Origin: an uncultured Lachnospiraceae bacterium
Lineage (GTDB): Bacteria; Bacillota; Clostridia; Lachnospirales; Lachnospiraceae
Length of the DNA: 52,473 nt
Assembly (NCBI GenBank): GCA_947565305.1
Contig: CANOFO010000007.1
Location: forward strand, 1 to 52,473
Direction of reading: 5' to 3'
Under the pieces are notes generated by a model that was given only the letters and a program-made list of their open reading frames with translations, did no database searches and was not told the DNA's origin. The stretch's first letter is position 1; every line of letters starts with the position of its first letter. The position numbers and the translations under genes were made by a program. Shown here piece after piece: positions 5,673 to 16,998 of this stretch.

Positions 5673-6953
5673 CTACCGCAGCATTATCACAAAAGTTGCC
5701 CCTCCGCCGGGGGTGTCTTCCACCCATAATTTGCCTTTGTGCATACTGATAATTTCCCTGGCAATACACAAGCCAAGCCCGAAATGATTCTTGTCTTTAT
5801 GTGATTTATCACATCGGTAGAAGCGGTCGAATACCGCTTCTTTTTCTGTGTCTGCAATGCCGGGACCATTGTCCGCAACGCGGATGGTAAACTTGTCGGA
5901 AACGGTATGCAGGGAAAGACAGATTTTACCGCCCTCAGGCGTGTAACTGAGGGCATTGTCGATTAAGATGGACAGTACCTGTTCGATGCGCTCCTTATCG
6001 CACTGGCAGCAAGGAACAGAACTGTCTGGCAAGGTAATCTGAAAAGAAATGTTTTTTTCTTTTGCCAGAGATTCAAATTTCTCATAGGCAGATAGCAGCA
6101 CAGTATCTAGTTCCACAGCAGTTTTGTGAAGGTCAAGGCGTGAATTGTCGGTGCCAGAGAGCGTCAGCATATCGTCAATCAGGCGGCTCATGCGTTTTCC
6201 CTCCAGGGCAATGGCAGCTGCGAATCGCTCAGAATCCTCCGTGGAGGCATTTTTCATGGCAGAAAGGCAGGACAGCATGACCGTCAGGGGAGAACGCAGC
6301 TCATGGGAGGCGGAAGCGATAAATTCTGTCTGTTTCCTGCGGCTTTCTATCAGGGGCAGAATCATACGCCAGGTAAAGAACCAGAAAAAAACGGCAAGAA
6401 AGAAAATGCCGGCAATATCTGCTCCGGCAAATAAAATCCGCTGTATGGTAATATTGTCCTGCAGTTCGTTTAAAGGGTGAAGGATGGCAATATTTAAGAT
6501 TCCCCCATTTTTAGGAATCAGTATGACAGAAGCATAATAGGGGCTGCCATTGCTGGTAAATTCAAATTCCGCATGTGTCGAGAGCAAGGACTGTGGGGTA
6601 AAGGATTCCTCATAGATGCGGTGCTCGTTGCGTGCCTTTTCGCGGACCAGGTCAAAGACAGGCTCCTTGGAGGAAGGCTTCAGGTTTCCAAAAGCCAATA
6701 GTTCACCGTTATCGCGGATATCCATCTCAAAATGGGTGTCTGAATGGAACTGCGAGAGCCAGTTATGGGAGATGATGGATTGGCTTTCCAGATAACTGAT
6801 TAACATATTGACATTTACCTGAAAGTCAGAAAAATAGCTCTCCCTGGATTCCGCTTCCTGAAAGGAAAGGCAGATAAACGACATAAAAACCAGGATGAAA
6901 CCGCTTACCAGGGTACATAAGAGCGTCAGGCGGATATGGAGTTTTTTAAACAT
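5673..6953 (-). CDS. Two-component sensor histidine kinase (system 1)
   Basis: 426 residues from the ATG at 6953, chosen because GGAGG lies 6 bases upstream; a longer frame to 6977 lacks such a site. Transmembrane segments are at about 8-28 and 170-195. They bracket an extracytoplasmic sensor domain of about 135 residues, followed by dimerisation (ASHELRSPLT, phospho-acceptor His about 217) and ATP-binding domains (N-box DNALSYTP, DNGPGI, FGLGLCIA). It overlaps the regulator gene by 8 bases, so the two are translationally coupled. Its partner is the OmpR-type regulator at 6946-7626. The divergent lipoprotein/transporter cluster is the probable target; the ligand is unknown but is read outside the membrane. 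Confidence 0.93.
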   Translation of the reverse strand: MFKKLHIRLTLLCTLVSGFILVFMSFICLSFQEAESRESYFSDFQVNVNMLISYLESQSIISHNWLSQFHSDTHFEMDIRDNGELLAFGNLKPSSKEPVFDLVREKARNEHRIYEESFTPQSLLSTHAEFEFTSNGSPYYASVILIPKNGGILNIAILHPLNELQDNITIQRILFAGADIAGIFFLAVFFWFFTWRMILPLIESRRKQTEFIASASHELRSPLTVMLSCLSAMKNASTEDSERFAAAIALEGKRMSRLIDDMLTLSGTDNSRLDLHKTAVELDTVLLSAYEKFESLAKEKNISFQITLPDSSVPCCQCDKERIEQVLSILIDNALSYTPEGGKICLSLHTVSDKFTIRVADNGPGIADTEKEAVFDRFYRCDKSHKDKNHFGLGLCIAREIISMHKGKLWVEDTPGGGATFVIMLR

Positions 6954-7626
6954 GCGGTACCTCCAGCTGGTAGCCAACGCCCCGGATAGTTTTCAGTTCC
7001 ACGGAACTTTCCACGCTCCGTAGACGCCGGCGGACAAAATAAATGTAATTGTCTAAATTTCCCTCTTCAACTTCCGTATCGATTCCCCAGATTTTTGAGA
7101 GTATGGATGCCCTGGGAATGGTCTGCCGGGGATTGCGCAGAAAGAATTCCAGCAAATCGCCTTCCCTGGCGGAAAGGGAGCAGGAGAGATTTTTGCAGTA
7201 CAGTTTTTTCTGTTCTGTATCATAGGACAGATCCCCATATTCGATGGGTTTGCTGCCCTCCCATTTGGATGGGCGCCTTAAGATACAGCGTATCCGTGCA
7301 AGAAGTTCCTCGAAATCAAACGGTTTTACCAGGTAATCATCTGCGCCGCAGTCAAGCCCGGTTATTTTGTCATTGAGGGCGCCTAAGGCGGTGACAAAGA
7401 TAATGGGCGTGGAGATATTTTTCTCCCGGGTGATTTTTAAGACGGAAATGCCGTCCAGCTCGGGAAGCATACGGTCAAGCAGAATCAAATCGTGCGCCTG
7501 CTGTTCAATATAGTGCAGCCCCTCTTCGCCATCATGGCACACATCTGTCTCAAAATTATTGCGCTCCAACTGGAAACGGAGCGTTTCAGCAAGGGATTTA
7601 TCATCTTCAATAATCAGAATTCGCAT
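6946..7626 (-). CDS. OmpR/VanR-type response regulator (system 1)
   Basis: 226 residues beginning MRILIIEDDKS. The ATG at 7626 has AGGAAAGG about 11 bases upstream; the alternative start at 7653 lies inside a repeat and is less likely. The receiver domain has the acidic pair D8-D9, phospho-acceptor D51 (LILLDRMLPELDG) and conserved K (LVKPFDFEEL). The C-terminal winged helix carries TIRGVGYQLE, typical of OmpR/PhoB members. Proteins of this class bind direct repeats about one helical turn apart. The TTAGAGA repeats 11 bp apart in the divergent promoter at 7765-7815 fit that well. One arm of that site points at this gene, so autoregulation is likely. Confidence 0.94.
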   Translation of the reverse strand: MRILIIEDDKSLAETLRFQLERNNFETDVCHDGEEGLHYIEQQAHDLILLDRMLPELDGISVLKITREKNISTPIIFVTALGALNDKITGLDCGADDYLVKPFDFEELLARIRCILRRPSKWEGSKPIEYGDLSYDTEQKKLYCKNLSCSLSAREGDLLEFFLRNPRQTIPRASILSKIWGIDTEVEEGNLDNYIYFVRRRLRSVESSVELKTIRGVGYQLEVPHV

Positions 7627-7642
7627 GGTTGTGACAGCCTTT

Positions 7643-7670
7643 CCTATGCGCACTGCGGCGCGTATAATAT
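7643..7670. repeat. 28-bp repeat, copy 1, in leader of two-component operon
   Basis: A GC-rich near-palindrome ending in GTATAATAT, repeated with two differences at 7714-7741 (71 bp away). It lies between the regulator start codon and its inferred promoter, so it would be in the 5' leader of that mRNA. This copy has a weaker hairpin than copy 2. Confidence 0.7.
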
Positions 7671-7713
7671 CTAACGGTATTATGCCATGAATTGCTGCGC
7701 AATCACATGGCTG

Positions 7714-7741
7714 CCTATGCGCGCTTCGGCGCGTATAATAT
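7714..7741. repeat. 28-bp repeat, copy 2, hairpin with TTCG loop
   Basis: Second copy of the repeat at 7643. GCGCGC-TTCG-GCGCG forms a compact hairpin, and a TATAAT sequence follows on the plus strand. On the minus strand it falls within the leader of the regulator/kinase mRNA, just downstream of the inferred -10. Confidence 0.7.
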
Positions 7742-7749
7742 TTGATAAT

Positions 7750-7830
7750 ATTATACCATGGTTATCTCTAATTAATCTCTAAAAAGTTATGGGGAATTTA
7801 GAGAATAGTTAGAGAATATTATGCTATCCT
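7750..7830. promoter_or_regulatory. Bidirectional operator/promoter of TCS1 and lipoprotein 1
   Basis: Two TCTCTAA sites (7765, 7776) and two TTAGAGA sites (7798, 7809) form an inverted pair of direct repeats, with starts 11, 22 and 11 bp apart. On the plus strand a -10-like TATCCT starts at 7825, 16 bp after the start of the last site. On the minus strand a perfect TATAAT (7755-7750) starts at exactly the same distance from its last site. Neither side has a good -35, as expected for activator-dependent promoters. This is the likely binding site of the adjacent OmpR-type regulator, driving both its own operon and the lipoprotein cluster. Confidence 0.8.
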
Positions 7831-7872
7831 ATTGTTGCGAACTATATTGGGAGGATGAAGGAGGATGTAAAT

Positions 7873-10149
7873 ATGAAATCTAAAAAGTGCAAAAGAGCGT
7901 TAGGGCTGCTGTTGGCAGCAATATTGATTTGCGCAGGCCTTATCGGATGCAGTAATGACGGCGCAGGAGAAAATGGGGAAGGGAGTGAAAGCAGCAGCAA
8001 AGGTAACCAGGGCAAAGAAGAGTCGGCGCGGGGACGTTTTCTGGAAGAAGAGTTGGATACAGGGGGAAAGTTCGACTATGTTCTTGATATGGGGAGGATG
8101 GAAGATGGAAGACTTCGCCTGGTTGCTCAGTCTGGTATAAACAGTTCAGTCTGGCAGTTGGCAGACGATGGCAAAAATTTGGATAAGGTATATGATTTTC
8201 CAGAAGAACTGCAGGCGTCTGCAAATGGCAGTATTAGTTGTGCTGCACTATCCCCGGATGGGCAGATAGTGTGCGAATTCACAGAATATGGAACAGATGA
8301 TTACCATTCCGTGCTTTATCTGATTGATAAGGAAGGTAAGGCAAATAAGCTGCCTTTTGAACTTCCGGAATTAGAAGAAGGTAAAAACTGGGCAGAGGAT
8401 GAGGAAATGTCAAATCAGGTAGAGGATTTGCAGTTTCCGGTAAATGACCAGGTGGTGCTGCAAGACAGAAATGGAACAGTTTTCCAGATAGACGCAGCGG
8501 ATGGCAGCGTGAAACACGAGTATGAGATGGATTCGGCCATGTTTCCTTTTCATATGTTTGCCATGGGAAATACTCTGGTTCTACAATCGGGGGATCAGGT
8601 AATTCTCTACGATATGAAGACCGGGGAACAGAAACAAGCGGAGGAAACGCTGAGAAGCGAAGGAGCAAAGAGCGGCGGCTACAGAGAGATGGATACGCTG
8701 GATGGTGGGGAGAGTATCTATTGCCTTTCCGCGGGCGGTCTGTACTATTATAAATTTGGCGGCAGCATCATGGAACAGCTGATTGATGGAAGCATGAATA
8801 CTCTGGGAACGCCGGATTTCTATCCGATGGCAATGGCGATGTTAGATGAGCAGAATCTTCTGGTAGCCGCCCATGGAGATTCTGGCACAGAAGGAATGGT
8901 ATTATACAAGTATACATATTCTGCGGACGTTCCGCTCAAACCGGATAAGGAACTGAAAATTTATTCTCTTTATGATGATGAGACGATTCGTGAGATTATC
9001 AATCGTTTCCGCAAAGAACATTCGGATGTGAATGTGAATTACCAGGCAGCGCTTTCAGAGGATAATGGAATGACGGTTTCCGATGCCTTAAAGACATTGA
9101 CAACGGAAATTATGGCAGGCAATGGACCGGATGTACTGCTGTTAGATGGTATGCCCATACAAACGTATATTGAGAAAGGTGTGCTGAAAGATTTGAGCCA
9201 GCTGTTAAAAGAGACCGGGGGCAGTTATTTTGAGAATATCACCAATGCCTATCAAGATGATCAGGGGCAGCTGTGCGCAGTTCCCTCAAGGTTTTTGATT
9301 CCGATGATTCAGGCGGGCAGCAAGTACTATTCGCCTGGGGAAGATTTTGATACTTTCATGGAGCGTAAAGATACCATGGTAAATATGCGTCCGCCAAATG
9401 TAGTGGGAAAGTTCTGGTATACCTGCGGAGCAGCCTGGCAGAAAGAAGATGGCACGTTGGATGAGGCAAAGGTTACAGAGTTTCTGGTTAAGCTGAAACA
9501 CGGATACGGCCAATATGACAGCAGCATAGAGGGATACGACTACAACCGGGAGCCAATGGAAAGCATGCTCCTGTTTTATGGAGATTATGAGTTGCTGAAT
9601 GGGAATTGGAATACGAATTTTGGCTTGTGCGGATATAAGGACTATGGATTTGAGGTGGCGATAAATGAGAAAGTGACAGACGGATGCGTAGATTTAATGC
9701 CAGGGCAGGCGGACCATGTATTTGTCCCTGCGATGGTGCTGGGTATCAGCAGCAAGAGTTCACAGCCTGAGTTAGCTGGGGAATTTGTCAAATATCTGCT
9801 CAGTCCCAATGCAGCGCAGGATATATTTACTCAATTCAGTGGCTTTCCAGTGGAAAAAGGAGCGTTTCGCAGTGCAATAGACGGACATAAGTATGAAAAA
9901 AATGAAAATAATATCACCTCTCAGCTTCACGATGGAGATGCTATTGAATATACCCAGGCGCCCACGCCAGAAGAGGAAATCACGAGGATGACGGAACTGG
10001 CGGAATCGCTGACGACCCCCTCCTTGCAGGATGACGTGATTAAGGAGGCTGTGGTTGAACAGGGGGTAAAGGTGCTGAAAGGAGAGCAAAGCCCAGAGGA
10101 GGGTGCAGTTGCCATCATCAAGAAAGTAAACATCTATCTGGCAGAGTAA
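7873..10149 (+). CDS. Lipoprotein 1: propeller-like + solute-binding fusion
   Basis: 758 residues from the ATG at 7873, which has AAGGAGG 8 bases upstream; the ATG at 7855 is too close to its GGGAGG. A signal peptide ends in a lipobox LIGC (Cys26), predicting a membrane-anchored lipoprotein on the outer face, followed by a flexible Gly/Ser/Glu linker. Residues about 50-350 are beta-rich repeats (LSPDGQIVCEF, DGSVKHEYE) like a propeller. Residues about 358-758 resemble a family-1 extracellular solute-binding protein (FRKEHSDVNVNYQ, GNGPDVLLLDG, FVPAMVLGISSKS). It is the first of three tandem paralogues and is followed by two MalFG-like permeases, suggesting capture of a sugar, glycan or peptide. 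The fold assignment of the N-terminal half is inference. Confidence 0.85.
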   Translation: MKSKKCKRALGLLLAAILICAGLIGCSNDGAGENGEGSESSSKGNQGKEESARGRFLEEELDTGGKFDYVLDMGRMEDGRLRLVAQSGINSSVWQLADDGKNLDKVYDFPEELQASANGSISCAALSPDGQIVCEFTEYGTDDYHSVLYLIDKEGKANKLPFELPELEEGKNWAEDEEMSNQVEDLQFPVNDQVVLQDRNGTVFQIDAADGSVKHEYEMDSAMFPFHMFAMGNTLVLQSGDQVILYDMKTGEQKQAEETLRSEGAKSGGYREMDTLDGGESIYCLSAGGLYYYKFGGSIMEQLIDGSMNTLGTPDFYPMAMAMLDEQNLLVAAHGDSGTEGMVLYKYTYSADVPLKPDKELKIYSLYDDETIREIINRFRKEHSDVNVNYQAALSEDNGMTVSDALKTLTTEIMAGNGPDVLLLDGMPIQTYIEKGVLKDLSQLLKETGGSYFENITNAYQDDQGQLCAVPSRFLIPMIQAGSKYYSPGEDFDTFMERKDTMVNMRPPNVVGKFWYTCGAAWQKEDGTLDEAKVTEFLVKLKHGYGQYDSSIEGYDYNREPMESMLLFYGDYELLNGNWNTNFGLCGYKDYGFEVAINEKVTDGCVDLMPGQADHVFVPAMVLGISSKSSQPELAGEFVKYLLSPNAAQDIFTQFSGFPVEKGAFRSAIDGHKYEKNENNITSQLHDGDAIEYTQAPTPEEEITRMTELAESLTTPSLQDDVIKEAVVEQGVKVLKGEQSPEEGAVAIIKKVNIYLAE

Positions 10150-10205
10150 CGCGCAGTTTGTGCGAATGGACATGGAGCGTTTGAAAAGCTATATGTTCAA
10201 AGCCG

Positions 10206-10271
10206 TCTCTATTTAATCTCTAAAATTTTTATTTAAAATTAGAGATAGGTTAGAGAAACCTGTGTTATCGT
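10206..10271 (+). promoter_or_regulatory. Second copy of the TTAGAGA operator, before lipoprotein 2
   Basis: TCTCTAT (10206), TCTCTAA (10217), TTAGAGA (10239) and TTAGAGA (10250) reproduce the 11-22-11 spacing of the site at 7765. A -10-like TATCGT starts at 10266, again 16 bp after the start of the last half-site. The leftward arm has no -10-like sequence at the matching place, so here only the rightward promoter is likely active. The arrangement suggests the operator was duplicated together with the gene. Confidence 0.75.
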
Positions 10272-10305
10272 ATTTTTAGCCCAAAACGATAAAGGAGGAC
10301 ACAAT

Positions 10306-12726
10306 ATGAGGTACAGAAAATGGAGACGAGTGATAGGTATGCTGCTGGCAGCCTCATTGATTTGTGCAAGCCTTACAGGCTGCAGTAAAGACACTGCAGA
10401 TGGAACTGGCAAGGATGGCGGCACAGGCGGCGGAGACGGTCAGGGAAATGGTACAGAGTCTGTCGGGGAACAGGCGATGGGGCGTTTCCTGGAAGAGGAA
10501 TTGGACACAGGGGTGGTATTCGGCAATATTTATGATATGAAAAAACTGGAAGATGGAAGCCTGCGCATTGTCGGCACAGATGGAGATAATGGAAATTCTG
10601 CCGTCTGGGACTCAACAGACGGTGGCAAGACTTGGCAAAGTGCATTTGATTTGCCGGCAGAAATACAAAATCCTGAAAAAGGGTGGATGGATTATGCTGC
10701 GGTATCTCCGGGCGGGCAGGTAGTATGTGCATTCAATGAAAATGTGCCTGGCGGCATCCACCCAGTTCTTTATCTGCTGGATAAGGAAGGGAAGGCAGAC
10801 AAGATGCCCTTTGAACTTCCGAAAAAGGAGGGAAAGGGCGGTTCCGTAGTAAGCAAGTCTGTTGAGGTGCCGGTGAGCGATACAGAGCAGCCAGAAGCAG
10901 GAGCAGAGGAACAGCCAGAAGCAGGAGCAGAGGGGCAGTCGGAAAGTGGAGGTTTTACAAATATCGTTACGGATCTGCAGTTTCCTGGCAATGAATGGGT
11001 TGTGCTGCAGGACGGCGCAGGGACGGTCTATCAGATAAATGTCCCGGATGGCAGCGTGAAATATACTTACGATCTTGACTCTGACACGAGCGTGTTTCAG
11101 ATATATGCCGTGGGAAATACCCTGCTTGCACAGGACGAGACGCAGGTGCTCTGCTACGATATGCAGACCGGGGAACAAAAAGATTCTGAGGAGGCTTTGA
11201 ACAGGGGCGGTTTGGAAAACGGTCTTTTCCATGCAGTCGATACGTTGGATGGCGGGGAGAGCGTCTACTGCCTTTCCGGAGGAGGTCTGTACCATTATAA
11301 ATTTGGCGGCAGCGTGATGGAACAGCTGATAGATGGGAATATGAATTCTCTGGGAGCGCCAGCCTTTTACCCAATTGCATTGGCGATGATAGATGAGCAG
11401 AATCTTTTGGTGGCTGCCAATGATACAAATTCATCCTCCGCGACCGGGGTCTGTGTGCTTAAGTACGCTTATTCTGCGGACACGCCGGCGAAACCGGATA
11501 AAGAACTGAAAATGTATTCCCTCTATGACAATAAGGAAATCCGCCAGTCCATCAGCCGTTTCCAGAAAGAGCATACGGATGTGTATGTCAATTATCAGGC
11601 TGCGCTCTCTGAGGATAATGGAATGAATGTTTCCGATGCCTTAAAGACGCTGGCAACGGAAATCATGGCTGGCAATGGACCGGATGTGCTGCTTTTGGAT
11701 GGAATGCCGGTGGAGACGTATATAGAAAAAGGCATCCTGAAAGATTTGAGCGCGCTGCTGAAAGAGAGCGGGGGCAGTTACTTTGAGAATATCATCAATG
11801 CCTACCAGGATGCGCAGGGGCAGATGTGCGCTGTTCCGGCAAGATTTATGATTCCTATGATTCAGGCTGGCAGCGCCTACTATTCACCAGGAGAAGATTT
11901 TAATGCATTTACGGAGCGCAAAGATACCATGGTGAATATGCTGCCGGGGACGGTGGTAGAAAAGTTCTGGTATACCTGCGGTGCAGCATGGCAGAAAGAA
12001 GATAAGACCTTAGACGAATCAAAGATTACAGAATTTCTGACCAAGCTGAAAAATGCATACGGTGAGTATGACAGCAGCCTGGAAGATGAGGCTGCAGGGG
12101 TAGGTGTGACGATAGAAGGCGCCGGTACAGAAGTAGTGAAGGATGTATATTTTACTCAGGGAAACCTTGAGTTGGCATTTGGAAAAATCAACACGAATTT
12201 CGGGCTGTATAGAGATATGGATTACGGAATGCAGCAGGCAGTAAATAAAAAACTGGAAAATGGCAATATGGATTTAATGCCAGGGCAGGCGGACCATGTA
12301 TTTGTCCCTACGATGGTGATGGGCATCAGCAGCAAGAGCGCACAGCCGGACCTGGCAGAGGAATTTGTCAAATACCTGTTCTCCCAGGAGGCACAGAAGA
12401 TTTCGCAATTCAGCGGTTTTCCGGTGGAGAAAGAATCATTCCGGAGCGTGATAGACGGACATGAGTATGAAGGGCAGGAAAATCTTGTCGGCGTTAGTGG
12501 CTTGGATATGGACGAGATACTTGATTTTGCCATGGAACCCACGCCGGAAGAGGAGATTACGAAGCTGACGGAGCTTGCGGAATCGCTGACGACCCCATCC
12601 TTGCAGGATGACGTGATTAAGGAAGCGGTCGTGGAACAGGGCGAAAAGGTATTGAAAGGAGAACTGAGTCCTGAGGAGGGCGCGGCTGCCATCATGCAGA
12701 AAGTAAATATTTATCTGGCGGAGTAG
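10306..12726 (+). CDS. Lipoprotein 2: propeller-like + solute-binding fusion
   Basis: 806 residues with AAAGGAGG before the ATG. The signal peptide ends in lipobox LTGC (Cys26). The N-terminal half contains a clear Asp-box (BNR) motif, STDGGKTWQ, as found in sialidase-type propellers, and repeats such as LDGGESVYCLSGGGLYHYKF. The solute-binding half starts near residue 398 and is very close to that of lipoprotein 1, including long identical DNA stretches (for example around 12272-12310). It is longer than its paralogues because of a duplicated acidic segment (QPEAGAE repeats) and an insert near residue 600. It has its own operator copy, so it can be transcribed separately from gene 1. Substrate unknown. 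Confidence 0.85.
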   Translation: MRYRKWRRVIGMLLAASLICASLTGCSKDTADGTGKDGGTGGGDGQGNGTESVGEQAMGRFLEEELDTGVVFGNIYDMKKLEDGSLRIVGTDGDNGNSAVWDSTDGGKTWQSAFDLPAEIQNPEKGWMDYAAVSPGGQVVCAFNENVPGGIHPVLYLLDKEGKADKMPFELPKKEGKGGSVVSKSVEVPVSDTEQPEAGAEEQPEAGAEGQSESGGFTNIVTDLQFPGNEWVVLQDGAGTVYQINVPDGSVKYTYDLDSDTSVFQIYAVGNTLLAQDETQVLCYDMQTGEQKDSEEALNRGGLENGLFHAVDTLDGGESVYCLSGGGLYHYKFGGSVMEQLIDGNMNSLGAPAFYPIALAMIDEQNLLVAANDTNSSSATGVCVLKYAYSADTPAKPDKELKMYSLYDNKEIRQSISRFQKEHTDVYVNYQAALSEDNGMNVSDALKTLATEIMAGNGPDVLLLDGMPVETYIEKGILKDLSALLKESGGSYFENIINAYQDAQGQMCAVPARFMIPMIQAGSAYYSPGEDFNAFTERKDTMVNMLPGTVVEKFWYTCGAAWQKEDKTLDESKITEFLTKLKNAYGEYDSSLEDEAAGVGVTIEGAGTEVVKDVYFTQGNLELAFGKINTNFGLYRDMDYGMQQAVNKKLENGNMDLMPGQADHVFVPTMVMGISSKSAQPDLAEEFVKYLFSQEAQKISQFSGFPVEKESFRSVIDGHEYEGQENLVGVSGLDMDEILDFAMEPTPEEEITKLTELAESLTTPSLQDDVIKEAVVEQGEKVLKGELSPEEGAAAIMQKVNIYLAE
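10888..10934 (+). repeat. 24-bp in-frame tandem repeat
   Basis: Two consecutive copies of a unit encoding roughly QPEAGAE(E/G) lie inside lipoprotein 2. The unit keeps the reading frame and lengthens a surface-exposed linker, a typical slippage-prone coding repeat. Confidence 0.8.
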
Positions 12727-12808
12727 CAGCGCTGTTGGTGTGTATGGACAGGGAAGGTTTGAAACGTTATCGTATTTCTAGCTTGCGAACGTTATAGGAG
12801 GATAAAAA

Positions 12809-15124
12809 ATGAAATATGGAAAATGGAAGAGGGCGCTAGGAACGCTGCTGGCAGCAATATTGATTTGTGTAAGCTTTGCCGGGTGCAGCAAGGGCGGAGA
12901 TGGCAAGGATAGCAGCGGAGATAATCAGGGAAAGGAGACACAGCCTGCCGGGGAGCAGGCGGTGGGGCGTTTCCTGGAAGAGGAATTGGATACAGGAATT
13001 GTATTCGGCAAAATTTACGATGTGAGAAAACTGGAGGATGGCAGCCTGCGTATTGTCGGCGCGGATAGAGATAATGGGAATGCTGGCGTCTGGGAGTCGT
13101 CAGACGCTGGAAAAACCTGGAAGAACATATATAATTTGCCGGCGGAAGTACAGAGTTCTTCCTATCTGCATCTGGCTGCACTATCTCCCAGCGGGCAGAT
13201 AGTATGTGCAGTCGATAAATATATATCTGGCGAGCCCCATTCGGTTCTTTATCTTGTAGATAAGGAGGGAAAGGCAAATGAGATGAGCTTTGAACTTCCG
13301 GAAATGGAGGGCGAGGGTGGTCCAACAGTAAGCAAGCCTATGGAAGAGAGAAACATCGTTTTAGATTTGCAGTTTCCAGGAGACAATTGGGTTATGCTGG
13401 AGGACATTTATGGGAAAGTTTATCAGATTAATTCCTCGGACAGCAGCGTGAAATATACCTATGATTTTACTGTGGGCGAGATGGCAGCTGGATTTCCGAT
13501 GTATGCTGTGGGAGATACCTTGCTTAAACAGGATGGGACACAAGTTCTTTGTTATGATATGCAGACCGGGGAACAGGAGTCTTCCGAGGAAGTTTTGGGG
13601 CAAAATGATTTGCAAAACGGTTTTTTCAGCGCAATTGATACTCTGGATGGCGGAGAAAGTATCTATTGCCTTTCTAAAGGAGGGGTGTATTATTATAAAT
13701 TTGGCGGAAGTGTGATGGAACAGCTGATAGATGGGAGCATGAATTCTCTGGGAGTTCCGTCCTCTGCCCTTACGGCGTTGGCGATGATAGATGAGCGGAA
13801 TCTTCTGGTGGCTGCTGAAAGTAAAGATTCATCCTCCGAGACCAGAGCCTGTATATTAAAGTACACTTATTCTGCGGATACCCCAGCAAAACTGGAAAAG
13901 GAACTGAAAGTGTTTTCCCTCTATGATAATTCGGAAATTCGCCAGTCCATCAGCCTTTTTAAGAAAGAGCATACAGATGTGCAGGTCAATTATCAGGTGG
14001 CGTTGTCTGAGGATAATGGAATGAATGTATCCGATGTCCTAAAGGCGCTGACAACGGAGATCATGGCAGGCAATGGGCCGGATTTACTGATTTTGGATGG
14101 AATGCCGGTGGAGACCTATATAGAAAAAGGTGTTCTCAAAGATCTGAGCGCCCTGCTGAAAGAAAGTGGCGGCAATTATTTTGAGAACATTCTCAATACT
14201 TATCAAGATGCACAGGGGCAGATGTGCGCAGTTCCGGCAAGGTTTTGGATACCCATGATTCAGGCGGGCAGCAAATATTTTGAGCCGGGTGAAGATTTTA
14301 ATGCATTTATGGAGCGCAAAGATACCATGGTGAATATGGATCCGAAGATGGTGGTGGAAAAATTTTGGTATACCTGCGGCGCAGCATGGCAGAAGGAGGA
14401 CAAGACTTTAGATGAATCAAAGATTACAGAATTTCTGACCAAGCTGAAAAATGCATACGGCGAATATGACCCTAACGTAGAAAGTGATAATAGCATGACC
14501 ATGACGCTGGAAGGAGGCGGCATGACAGAACTAACGAATAAGAGTTTTTTTGTAGGAAACATTAAGTTGCTATCTGGAGACTGGAACACGAATTTCGGCT
14601 TGTATGGAGAACTATATTATGGGATACAGGAGATGGTAAATGAAGCCCTGGAAAATGGCAATATCGATTTGATGCCGGGGCAGGCGGATCATGTATTTGT
14701 CCCCGCAATGGTGCTGGGCATCAGCAGCAGGAGCGCACAGCCGGAACTGGCAGAAGCGTTTGTGAAGTACCTGTTTTCCCAGGAGGCACAGCAGATTTTG
14801 CAATACGGAGGCTTCCCGGTGGAGAAAGAATCCTTCCGCAGTGCGATAGATGGACATCAGTATGGAGACCCGGATAGGGATATGGGCGGTGGTTTTTCGG
14901 ATTCTAATGGGAGAGAATACTTGTATTCCCATAAGCCTACGCCCGAAGAGGAAATAACGAGGATGACGGAGCTTGCGGAATCGCTGGAGACTCGCGCTTT
15001 ACAGGATGACGTGATTAAGGAAGTGGTCATGGAACAGGGAGAAAAGGTCTTAAAAGGAGAACTGAGTCCTGAGGAGGCAACGGGTGCCATCATACAAAAG
15101 GTAAATATTTACCTGGTGGAATAA
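12809..15124 (+). CDS. Lipoprotein 3: propeller-like + solute-binding fusion
   Basis: 771 residues, TAGGAGG before the ATG, lipobox FAGC (Cys26). It shares the architecture of lipoproteins 1 and 2: an Asp-box-like SSDAGKTWK in the N-terminal half and a solute-binding half from about residue 364 (GNGPDLLILDG, QADHVFVPAMVLGISS). The 82-base gap before it aligns with the gap before lipoprotein 2 at both ends but lacks the whole TTAGAGA array. It is therefore probably expressed by read-through from gene 2. The binding halves are more alike than the propeller-like halves, as if the outer half diversified while the transporter-facing half was held constant. Confidence 0.85.
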   Translation: MKYGKWKRALGTLLAAILICVSFAGCSKGGDGKDSSGDNQGKETQPAGEQAVGRFLEEELDTGIVFGKIYDVRKLEDGSLRIVGADRDNGNAGVWESSDAGKTWKNIYNLPAEVQSSSYLHLAALSPSGQIVCAVDKYISGEPHSVLYLVDKEGKANEMSFELPEMEGEGGPTVSKPMEERNIVLDLQFPGDNWVMLEDIYGKVYQINSSDSSVKYTYDFTVGEMAAGFPMYAVGDTLLKQDGTQVLCYDMQTGEQESSEEVLGQNDLQNGFFSAIDTLDGGESIYCLSKGGVYYYKFGGSVMEQLIDGSMNSLGVPSSALTALAMIDERNLLVAAESKDSSSETRACILKYTYSADTPAKLEKELKVFSLYDNSEIRQSISLFKKEHTDVQVNYQVALSEDNGMNVSDVLKALTTEIMAGNGPDLLILDGMPVETYIEKGVLKDLSALLKESGGNYFENILNTYQDAQGQMCAVPARFWIPMIQAGSKYFEPGEDFNAFMERKDTMVNMDPKMVVEKFWYTCGAAWQKEDKTLDESKITEFLTKLKNAYGEYDPNVESDNSMTMTLEGGGMTELTNKSFFVGNIKLLSGDWNTNFGLYGELYYGIQEMVNEALENGNIDLMPGQADHVFVPAMVLGISSRSAQPELAEAFVKYLFSQEAQQILQYGGFPVEKESFRSAIDGHQYGDPDRDMGGGFSDSNGREYLYSHKPTPEEEITRMTELAESLETRALQDDVIKEVVMEQGEKVLKGELSPEEATGAIIQKVNIYLVE

Positions 15125-15184: not shown

Positions 15185-16072
15185 GTGCGGAGGATGAGAA
15201 AGAAATTTTCAGGGAAAAGGAAAAGCCGAAAAAATAATAAGCATAAAAATATGCGGGGATTCCTGTGGATATTGCCAAGTTTCCTGGGAGTCATGGTATT
15301 CTATCTCCTGCCTTATGCAGATGTTGTCCGCCGCTCCTTTTTAGGGGCGGTTGACAACCGATTTGTAGGGATCGACAATTACAAGACAGTGTTGGGGAAT
15401 ACGGCGTTTCAGCTTGCCGTGAAAAATACGCTGCTGTTTACTTTGCTCTGTATCCCGGTATTAATTATCGTTGCGCTTTTTTGCGCAGTAACATTGTATA
15501 AGAGTAAATATGGCGGAATCATTAAAAGTGCATTTTTGATGCCGATGGCGCTGCCCGCAGTTTCGGTAGCGTTGGTGTGGCGGCTTCTCTTCCACTCCCA
15601 GGGACTTTTGAACCATTGGCTCAGCAATCTGAACATTGCCGGCAATGACTGGATGAATAATGGGAGCGCATTCTGGATTTTATTTGTCAGCTATATCTGG
15701 AAAAACCTTGGCTATGATATTGTTCTTTGGATGGCGGGGCTTGCCGGCATATCCTCGAACATCTACGAGGCGGCAAGGGTGGATGGTGCCGGGGAACGGC
15801 AGTGTTTTTTCTATATTACGCTGCCGAATCTCAAATCATCACTCTATACCATCACGGTTTTGTCTTTTCTCAATTCTTTTAAGGTGTTTCGGGAGGCATA
15901 CCTGGTTGCCGGCGATTATCCACACGAGAGTATTTATATGATGCAGCATTTGTTCAATAACTGGTTCCGCCAATTTTCTTTTGACAAGATGGCAGCGGCG
16001 GCAGTATTGGAAAGCGTGGTACTTCTAACATTGATTATGCTTTTGCAGAGGGCATGGGACAATAAGGCATGA
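15185..16072 (+). CDS. MalF/LacF-type ABC permease
   Basis: 295 residues from a GTG at 15185; an ATG at 15194 is an alternative because GGAGG touches it directly and the AGGTAGG further up fits either start poorly. Six predicted membrane helices follow a very basic N-terminus (KKFSGKRKSRKNNKHK). The cytoplasmic EAA loop is present (EAARVDGAGERQCFFYITLP), which docks to an ATP-binding subunit. This is a carbohydrate-uptake-type-1 permease, one half of a heterodimer with the next gene. The three preceding solute-binding lipoproteins are the obvious partners. No MalK/MsmX-like ATPase gene is nearby, so a shared ATPase encoded elsewhere is probably used. Confidence 0.93.
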   Translation: MRRMRKKFSGKRKSRKNNKHKNMRGFLWILPSFLGVMVFYLLPYADVVRRSFLGAVDNRFVGIDNYKTVLGNTAFQLAVKNTLLFTLLCIPVLIIVALFCAVTLYKSKYGGIIKSAFLMPMALPAVSVALVWRLLFHSQGLLNHWLSNLNIAGNDWMNNGSAFWILFVSYIWKNLGYDIVLWMAGLAGISSNIYEAARVDGAGERQCFFYITLPNLKSSLYTITVLSFLNSFKVFREAYLVAGDYPHESIYMMQHLFNNWFRQFSFDKMAAAAVLESVVLLTLIMLLQRAWDNKA

Positions 16073-16998
16073 CAAAAGAAAGGAACATGTCAGTTATGAA
16101 GAGATATTTCAAACAACGCAACATAAAAATCAGAGGCAAACGGGCAGTTTTCCATCCGGGGCGTACATTATTGTGGCTGTCGCTGACAATATTGGCAGTC
16201 ATAGTGCTGTACCCCATTGTGTTTCTGATTTCAGGTTCGCTGATGGGAAATGATGAGTTGGCAAATTATCTGGGCGCAGTGTTTTTAGGAAAAAGTGGAT
16301 ATGCAGACTTTCCTCCTTTGCCCATGTTTCCAACCCTGCGGCATTATGTGGAATTGTTTCTGGATTCGCCGGAATTCTTCGTGATGTTCTGGAATTCTGT
16401 GAAGATTACATTTGGCGTCCTCATTGGGCAGTTTATCGTGGGGACGATGGCAGCGTGGGGATTTGCCAAGTATGATTTTCCCTGGAAAAAGGGATTTTTC
16501 TTACTTTATATGATATTGATGCTGCTGCCTTTCCAGGTGCTGATGCTTTCAGATTACCTGGTACTGGACTTTCTCAGGCTTACAGACAGCCTGTGGGGCA
16601 TCATACTTCCGGGCGTGTTTTCTACGTTTCCAGTGTTTATTATGTACCGCTTTTTTGCGGAGATACCAGATAGCCTGATTGAATCCGCCAAACTGGATGG
16701 GGCCAAAGACTGGCAGCTGTTTTTATACCTTGCGCTGCCGATTGGCTCATCCGGGATTATTGCCTGTATGGTATTGGGATTTCTGGAATACTGGAGCCTG
16801 ATTGAACAGCCAATGACATTTCTGAAAGATAAGAGTTTATTTCCCTTGTCCATCTTCCTGCCGGATATCACAAGCGTGGACAAATCAGGCATGGCGTTTG
16901 CGGCATCTGTGGTCACATTTCTACCGGCAGTATTGGTGTTTCTGGGAGGGCAGGATTATCTGGAACAGGGAATTATGGCGGGTGCGGTAAAAGAATAG
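16069..16998 (+). CDS. MalG-type ABC permease
   Basis: 309 residues; the ATG overlaps the previous stop by 4 bases, so translation is coupled. It has about six membrane helices and an EAA loop (SAKLDGAKDWQLFLYLALP) typical of the second permease of CUT1 importers. The segment between helices 1 and 2 is longer than usual (around residues 60-95), giving a bigger outward-facing loop, possibly related to the unusual fused lipoproteins. The basic N-terminal 25 residues are cytoplasmic. It is followed 13 bases later by the membrane-fusion protein gene, which suggests one long operon. Confidence 0.93.
   Translation: MTKERNMSVMKRYFKQRNIKIRGKRAVFHPGRTLLWLSLTILAVIVLYPIVFLISGSLMGNDELANYLGAVFLGKSGYADFPPLPMFPTLRHYVELFLDSPEFFVMFWNSVKITFGVLIGQFIVGTMAAWGFAKYDFPWKKGFFLLYMILMLLPFQVLMLSDYLVLDFLRLTDSLWGIILPGVFSTFPVFIMYRFFAEIPDSLIESAKLDGAKDWQLFLYLALPIGSSGIIACMVLGFLEYWSLIEQPMTFLKDKSLFPLSIFLPDITSVDKSGMAFAASVVTFLPAVLVFLGGQDYLEQGIMAGAVKE

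Follow-up and report, generated by a model that had tools for sequence, protein, structure and literature searches.

The question raised by this locus is which protein acts on a short, mirror-symmetric set of repeats located between a response regulator gene and a divergent lipoprotein gene, and what it does to the two promoters that flank them. The locus is part of a stretch of 52,473 nucleotides (hereafter the window) from an uncultured Lachnospiraceae bacterium (contig CANOFO010000007.1 of assembly GCA_947565305.1). From the arrangement of the repeats, promoters and genes, and from comparisons with related genomes, we consider it likely that the repeats are an autoregulated, probably activating, bidirectional operator of the OmpR/PhoB type that belongs to the adjacent regulator. 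In the mechanism that we propose, the 51-bp element would be the shared operator of this OmpR/PhoB-family response regulator, and each tandem pair of repeats (seven conserved and four variable bases, twice) would bind one head-to-tail dimer. The bound dimer would occupy the usual position of a -35 box, next to an extended -10. The active regulator would recruit RNA polymerase both to the operon that encodes itself and the kinase and, on the opposite side, to a lipoprotein/ABC-permease operon. A duplicated operator would drive a second lipoprotein paralogue, but in a single direction. Binding by the regulator, activation, dependence on phosphorylation and cooperativity are parts of this mechanism that we infer.

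The genes on the two sides are those of a two-component system and of a putative transport operon. The regulator gene (6946-7626, minus strand) encodes a receiver domain and an OmpR/PhoB-type C-terminal DNA-binding domain (Pfam PF00072 and PF00486), so the element adjoins an OmpR/PhoB-family response regulator, its presumed binder. The more likely start of this gene is the ATG at 7624-7626 (MRILIIEDD); the open reading frame had been listed from 7653. Overlapping it is the gene of a sensor histidine kinase (5673-6977, minus strand; HisKA and HATPase_c by Pfam). Divergently, on the plus strand, there are three lipoprotein paralogues at 7873-10149, 10306-12726 and 12809-15124. Paralogues 1 and 2 have an SBP_bac_1 domain (Pfam) preceded by several hundred residues, and paralogues 2 and 3 are 63% and 60% identical to paralogue 1, respectively. 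This tandem array of three (7873-15124) compares with one lipoprotein copy in 17 of 20 other long loci from the genus. Downstream in the operon are two binding-protein-dependent permease genes (15185-16998, plus strand; the first identified by Pfam), both of which match permease families with scores below the family cut-offs. Further rightward, the genes encode an adaptor-like protein, a product of 379 aa for which Pfam gave no match, and two large proteins; the first of these two has a weak match to a LolCE-type permease model.

The element consists of four exact copies of TTAGAGA. Two are on the minus strand, an outer copy at 7765-7771 and an inner one at 7776-7782, and two are on the plus strand, an inner copy at 7798-7804 and an outer one at 7809-7815. 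Their left ends are 11, 22 and 11 bp apart, and the mirror geometry described in the original prediction was borne out when the letters were read again. Each pair is a tandem direct repeat with an 11-bp period of seven conserved and four variable bases. Because the half-sites of a pair are separated by roughly one turn of the helix, and the two pairs by roughly two, two dimers would probably lie side by side, and they may help each other. We also considered, and rejected, a strict 11-bp grid in which 7787 would be a fifth slot left empty: the slot reads TTATGGG, and the grid is broken in two genus genomes with inner distances of 21 and 20 bp.

The TTAGAGA word by itself was mildly enriched in the window (13 occurrences, compared to a mean of 6.55 and a maximum of 12 over 100 shuffles). 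The exact tandem pair, TTAGAGA-N4-TTAGAGA, was found at three places in the source genome (3.07 Mb scanned, from an assembly that is 83% complete), all at the operator locus. Allowing one mismatch added a single site away from this locus, located on contig C4 ahead of the gene of the most closely related paralogous regulator. Since that was the sole other pair at this stringency, no larger regulon was found in the source genome. Pairs with up to two mismatches were left unused and carry no meaning, because the reversed control gave more matches (65) than the pair itself (20). The C4 paralogue, which is 49% identical to the present regulator, has inverted pairs of its own (G000:C4:26698-26785), made of TTAGAGG and TTAGAGA words and separated by a wider inner distance than those at the present operator. 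Cross-talk between the present regulator and the box of the C4 paralogue is possible.

We searched for the element in 29 genomes of the genus, the source genome included; many of the genomes analyzed here are metagenome assemblies, and related genomes are non-independent samples. The regulator was present in 26 of the 29, with 25 orthologues 80-96% identical to that of the window. The exact four-site pattern (TCTCTAA-N4-TCTCTAA-N5..25-TTAGAGR-N4-TTAGAGR) was found in 24 of 29 genomes, compared to 0 of 29 for a reversed control. A regulator orthologue was located within the 3-kb locus at 23 of these 24 exact loci, and the contig ends in the 24th. Two more genomes contain the orthologue next to slightly altered repeats: one half-site ends in T in G014 (one mismatch), and a left half-site ends in G, a base excluded by the exact pattern, in G011. 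Conservation of the repeats beside orthologous regulators had been proposed as a check on the original prediction. All four half-sites were kept, with at most one mismatch, in each of the 26 orthologue-bearing genomes; the 22-bp inner distance, the other part of that claim, was found in 24 of the 26, being 21 bp in G002 and 20 bp in G012. The inner spacer was 15 nt in 22 of the 24 exact loci. No exact TTAGAGR pair was found in the three genomes that have no regulator orthologue (G006, G007 and G026). The distance from the operator to the gene was 51-422 bp for the regulator and 48-115 bp for the lipoprotein (23 of 24 loci measured for each), with lipoprotein starts picked by a simple ribosome-site rule. 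In a wider sample of 397 genomes from the family, the exact pattern, which overlooks looser or wider-spaced operators, was found in two, both from the source genus.

There were 92 exact TTAGAGR-N4-TTAGAGR pairs in the 29 genus genomes. The operator or its second copy (see below) accounted for 55 of them, including two in G001, where the contig ends before the regulator; another 22 adjoin the closest paralogous regulator. The 15 remaining pairs are compatible with chance, because the reversed control yields 27. One locus (L026; G021:C16:35213-35496) carries an inserted, MITE-like element between the regulator and the operator, bounded by inverted copies of AGGTAATTGCGAAACT that are 268 bp apart; the regulator leader is lengthened and the operator is spared. 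Similar insertion ends were found at L015, L018 and L034. The end word AGGTAATTGCGAAACT occurs 47 times in G021 and is present in 15 of the 29 genus genomes, often as inverted pairs 268-317 bp apart.

A -10 element flanks the operator on each side. On the minus strand, the extended -10 TGG-TATAAT (7750-7758) marks the predicted regulator/kinase promoter; its hexamer, at 7755-7750, begins 16 bp from the half-site 5' end at 7771. On the plus strand, the extended -10 TGC-TATCCT (7822-7830) marks the predicted lipoprotein/transporter promoter, and its hexamer, at 7825-7830, begins 16 bp from 7809. Direct reading thus agreed with the proposed start of both -10 elements 16 bp from the last half-site. 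TG is located one base ahead of the hexamer in both promoters. The TGn-TA...T motif is common in the window (127 matches, compared to a shuffle mean of 103.5), so the position of the motif is all that counts as evidence. On neither strand of 7600-7900 did we find a sigma-70-like promoter that includes a -35 box (shuffles gave a mean of 1.3). The boxes take the place of the -35, about one helical turn from hexamers at +16. The original prediction had described both promoters as lacking -35 boxes and as relying on the activator; the lack was confirmed, but the extended -10s, and not only an activator, would compensate for it. Between the regulator and the operator (7640-7762) there are two copies of a palindromic repeat that has a GC-rich core and includes the minus-strand -10. 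This stretch has 10 matching places in the source genome, itself included, and resembles a REP family.

The position of the -10 was also kept at the 24 exact loci of the genus. On the lipoprotein side, TA...T was found at +16 in 24 of 24 loci (TATTCT in 13, TATCCT in 7, TATGCT in 3 and TATATT in 1), and TG was present in all of them. On the regulator side, both TA...T at +16 and TG were found in 19 of 24; the hexamer is at +15 in L046, L050 and L053, and L049 and L054 have another sequence. With a -10 weight matrix, an offset of 16 scored best of 20 offsets at 21 of 24 lipoprotein-side and 17 of 24 regulator-side loci, counts that include L057, a locus without the regulator in which the two sides are possibly exchanged.

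A dimer bound over the -35 region could also repress. Extended -10 promoters can function without a -35, and the half-sites cover the -35 position on both sides, so the same regulator might shut off both promoters (autorepression), with the extended -10s providing basal activity. We regard this as improbable. The lipoprotein-side hexamers deviate from the consensus (TATCCT, TATTCT) and no -35 promoter was found, which fits promoters that need help, and the distance from box to -10 resembles that of activating PhoP boxes, as given in the relevant passages of PMC3335776.

To look beyond the genus, we scanned named genomes and analyzed the best 80 of 383 loci, whose titles are mostly Lachnospiraceae but also Ruminococcus and Oscillospiraceae. 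Thirty of these best 80 of 383 loci have a regulator at least 72% identical to that of the window, and many of these loci come from assemblies already included in the genus scan. The tetrad was present with up to one mismatch in 29 of the 30, and the remaining locus, L143, is cut by a contig end. A lipoprotein homologue was the longest divergent open reading frame near the operator in 25 of the 30; another open reading frame was the longest in L146, L148, L149 and L151. Locus L151, from Sporofaciens musculi, has the orthologous regulator and the operator on a record whose title says plasmid; its first and second tetrads are separated by a 272-aa open reading frame of another kind. We also searched 250 bp for repeated words de novo, without assuming TTAGAGA, in the 29 loci of this nearer group that were long enough. 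In 23 of 29 this search recovered the word, at a level higher than in any of 20 Markov resamples; in the six misses (L128, L129, L130, L135, L136 and L140) the operator is at or beyond the end of the 250 bp.

The other 50 of the best 80 of 383 loci have a regulator 52-64% identical to that of the window. Within the limits searched, a TTAGAGR tetrad with up to two mismatches was found in 11 of them, with inner distances of 22 bp (three loci), 21 bp (three loci), 10, 55, 90, 91 and 124 bp. A divergent lipoprotein homologue was found in 32 of the 50, indicating that the gene pair extends to more loci than does the four-site arrangement in its strict form. Nor is an inner distance of 22 bp a universal feature.

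That it is the adjacent regulator that binds the box is something we infer, and another DNA-binding protein might use the box, the regulator being a mere neighbor. To relate box to regulator, we sorted regulators by recognition helix, counting identical upstream sequences once and dropping those shorter than 150 bp. Because these classes track the family tree, and because relatives dominate the NLDNYI class, the following counts are not independent. Next to NLDNYI-type regulators (V or M variants included), TTAGAGR pairs spaced at 11 bp (no more than one mismatch) were found in 89 of 101, compared to 2 of 101 at 10 bp, 9 of 101 at 12 bp and 9 of 101 for a scrambled word; with two mismatches, the comparison was 93 to 35. 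The pair was also found next to NVDNY-type (6 of 8) but not VVW-type (0 of 7) or VEVY-type (0 of 4) regulators. Instead, TTTAAGR pairs accompany the VEVY type (4 of 4), and these were absent next to the NLDNYI type (0 of 101). A half-site word that changes with the recognition helix is what direct contact between protein and DNA predicts, and it supports a tie between the box and the regulator's protein family. The three genus genomes that have neither the orthologue nor an exact pair, and the match between the 11-nt tandem 7+4 repeats and those of the PHO box (as presented in sections of PMC4415409), likewise point away from an unrelated protein. We consider such a binder very unlikely and retain the adjacent regulator as the probable one. 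At three loci with VEVY-helix regulators (L092, L094 and L096), the TTTAAGR tandem pairs occur together with a divergent gene whose start resembles what we take to be polyphosphate-polymerase (VTC-like) domains.

A second operator with the same 11-22-11 layout is located at 10206-10256, ahead of lipoprotein paralogue 2 (plus strand). Its half-sites start at 10206 (minus strand; ATAGAGA, one mismatch), 10217 (minus), 10239 (plus) and 10250 (plus), and the hexamer of an extended -10, TGT-TATCGT (10263-10271, plus strand), begins 16 bp from the half-site at 10250. Upstream of paralogue 3, there is a TATCGT at 12768-12773, and neither a preceding TG nor half-sites were found. The second operator was found in four species of the genus (the window, L104, L105 and L122), all with several lipoprotein genes and with an inner distance of 22 bp, and two further copies were found in L146 and L151. 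No second tetrad was detected in the 17 long genus loci with a single lipoprotein gene, nor was a second copy found within the 3-kb locus sequences of L148 and L149, close relatives of L146 and L151.

The second operator has kept a pair of half-sites that has no promoter of its own. In the four species, the mean pairwise identity (ungapped) was 0.94 for the left pair and 0.90 for the right pair, compared to 0.34 for the 40-bp left flank (0.60 for the closest species pair), 0.59 for the inner spacer, 0.94 from the right pair to the -10 and 0.48 beyond it. We found no leftward -10 at the mirror position in these species (ACATAT, GCATAG, CAGCAT and CAGATA) or in the copies in L146 and L151 (TGAATT and TGATTT). 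The left pair accompanies the right pair in all six copies, each with a single mismatch in the outermost half-site of the left pair. Since the outward pair is kept without a leftward -10, it seems to help the rightward promoter, and we take the mismatches as evidence that this help places a weaker demand on the outermost half-site.

These observations bear on whether the mirrored pairs act together. One possibility is that neither pair acts on any promoter but its own, the 22-bp inner distance being inherited and without function. The variation of this distance in distant relatives and beside the closest paralogous regulator fits such independence, but the preservation of the left pair in four species and two further loci does not, and we think independence rather unlikely. 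The pairs are probably not just two separate promoter sites. Tentatively, and with some doubt, we suggest that the mirrored four-site element could be one cooperative unit, in which two outward-pointing dimers would assemble into something like a tetramer, with the outward pair boosting the neighboring promoter even where a divergent promoter is lacking, as at the duplicated operator. If so, divergent promoters that share an element would be switched jointly, not independently.

An inverted repeat of this kind could also act as an RNA hairpin. On the plus strand, 7765-7815 has a folding energy of -17.7 kcal/mol (z -4.7) and the second copy one of -13.8 (z -2.6), as expected of any inverted repeat, but the first element is included in neither of the predicted transcripts and no terminator was found at the second copy. 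In addition, the terminal outer pair is mismatched in three of six second copies (L122, L146 and L151), whereas the TTAGAG-like core is kept. We rejected a hairpin or terminator role, which we consider barely credible, in favor of an operator in DNA.

If the operator functions as proposed, this two-component system gains a defined box and a likely regulon, consisting of itself and the lipoprotein/ABC-permease operon. The locus and its relatives also offer two natural experiments. In one, the half-site word of related regulators changes together with their recognition helix; in the other, a duplicated operator retains a pair of sites that lacks its promoter. With short synthetic promoters, specificity and cooperativity become testable in OmpR/PhoB regulators.

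In a literature search, made largely by title, we found no description of the present two-component system or its box, which does not prove their absence in print. The kind of operator is already known. In the passages of PMC4415409 that describe it, the PHO box consists of two 11-nt direct repeats, each with seven well conserved and four less conserved nucleotides, bound head to tail. The present pairs have the same 7+4 repeat unit as this box of PhoB/PhoP in E. coli, Bacillus and Streptomyces, but with TTAGAGR as the half-site. The regulator scored 183.4 bits, compared to the PhoB equivalog cut-off of 296.2, and because it misses this cut-off we assign the element to the OmpR/PhoB operator kind and not to the Pho regulon proper; the genes under its presumed control have no known link to phosphate. 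In the phoRP-phoU region of S. filipinensis, as outlined in part of PMC6283541, the 11-nt repeats DRu1-DRu4, oriented toward phoU, make up two boxes of two repeats each. The arrangement is similar in that two boxes are located in a single intergenic region common to the regulator operon and a divergent gene, but the present pairs point apart as mirror images, each with its own -10 at +16. In the Salmonella PhoP promoters in the passages of PMC3335776 (architectures I, II and V were compared), a direct box precedes the -10 by about one turn, and some of the promoters add a second, upstream or reverse box. The present box is likewise about one turn from the -10 and accompanied by a reversed box, but the PhoP box is a hexanucleotide repeat with 5-nt spacing and another sequence, and its gap to the -10 is 12 nt in the simplest class, compared to 9 nt here as we define the box. 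A comparison of distances to the PhoP reverse boxes was dropped because the box registers cannot be matched. Those passages describe no mirror pair common to divergent genes. The present element would work in the manner of these known operators, with its pairs mirrored.
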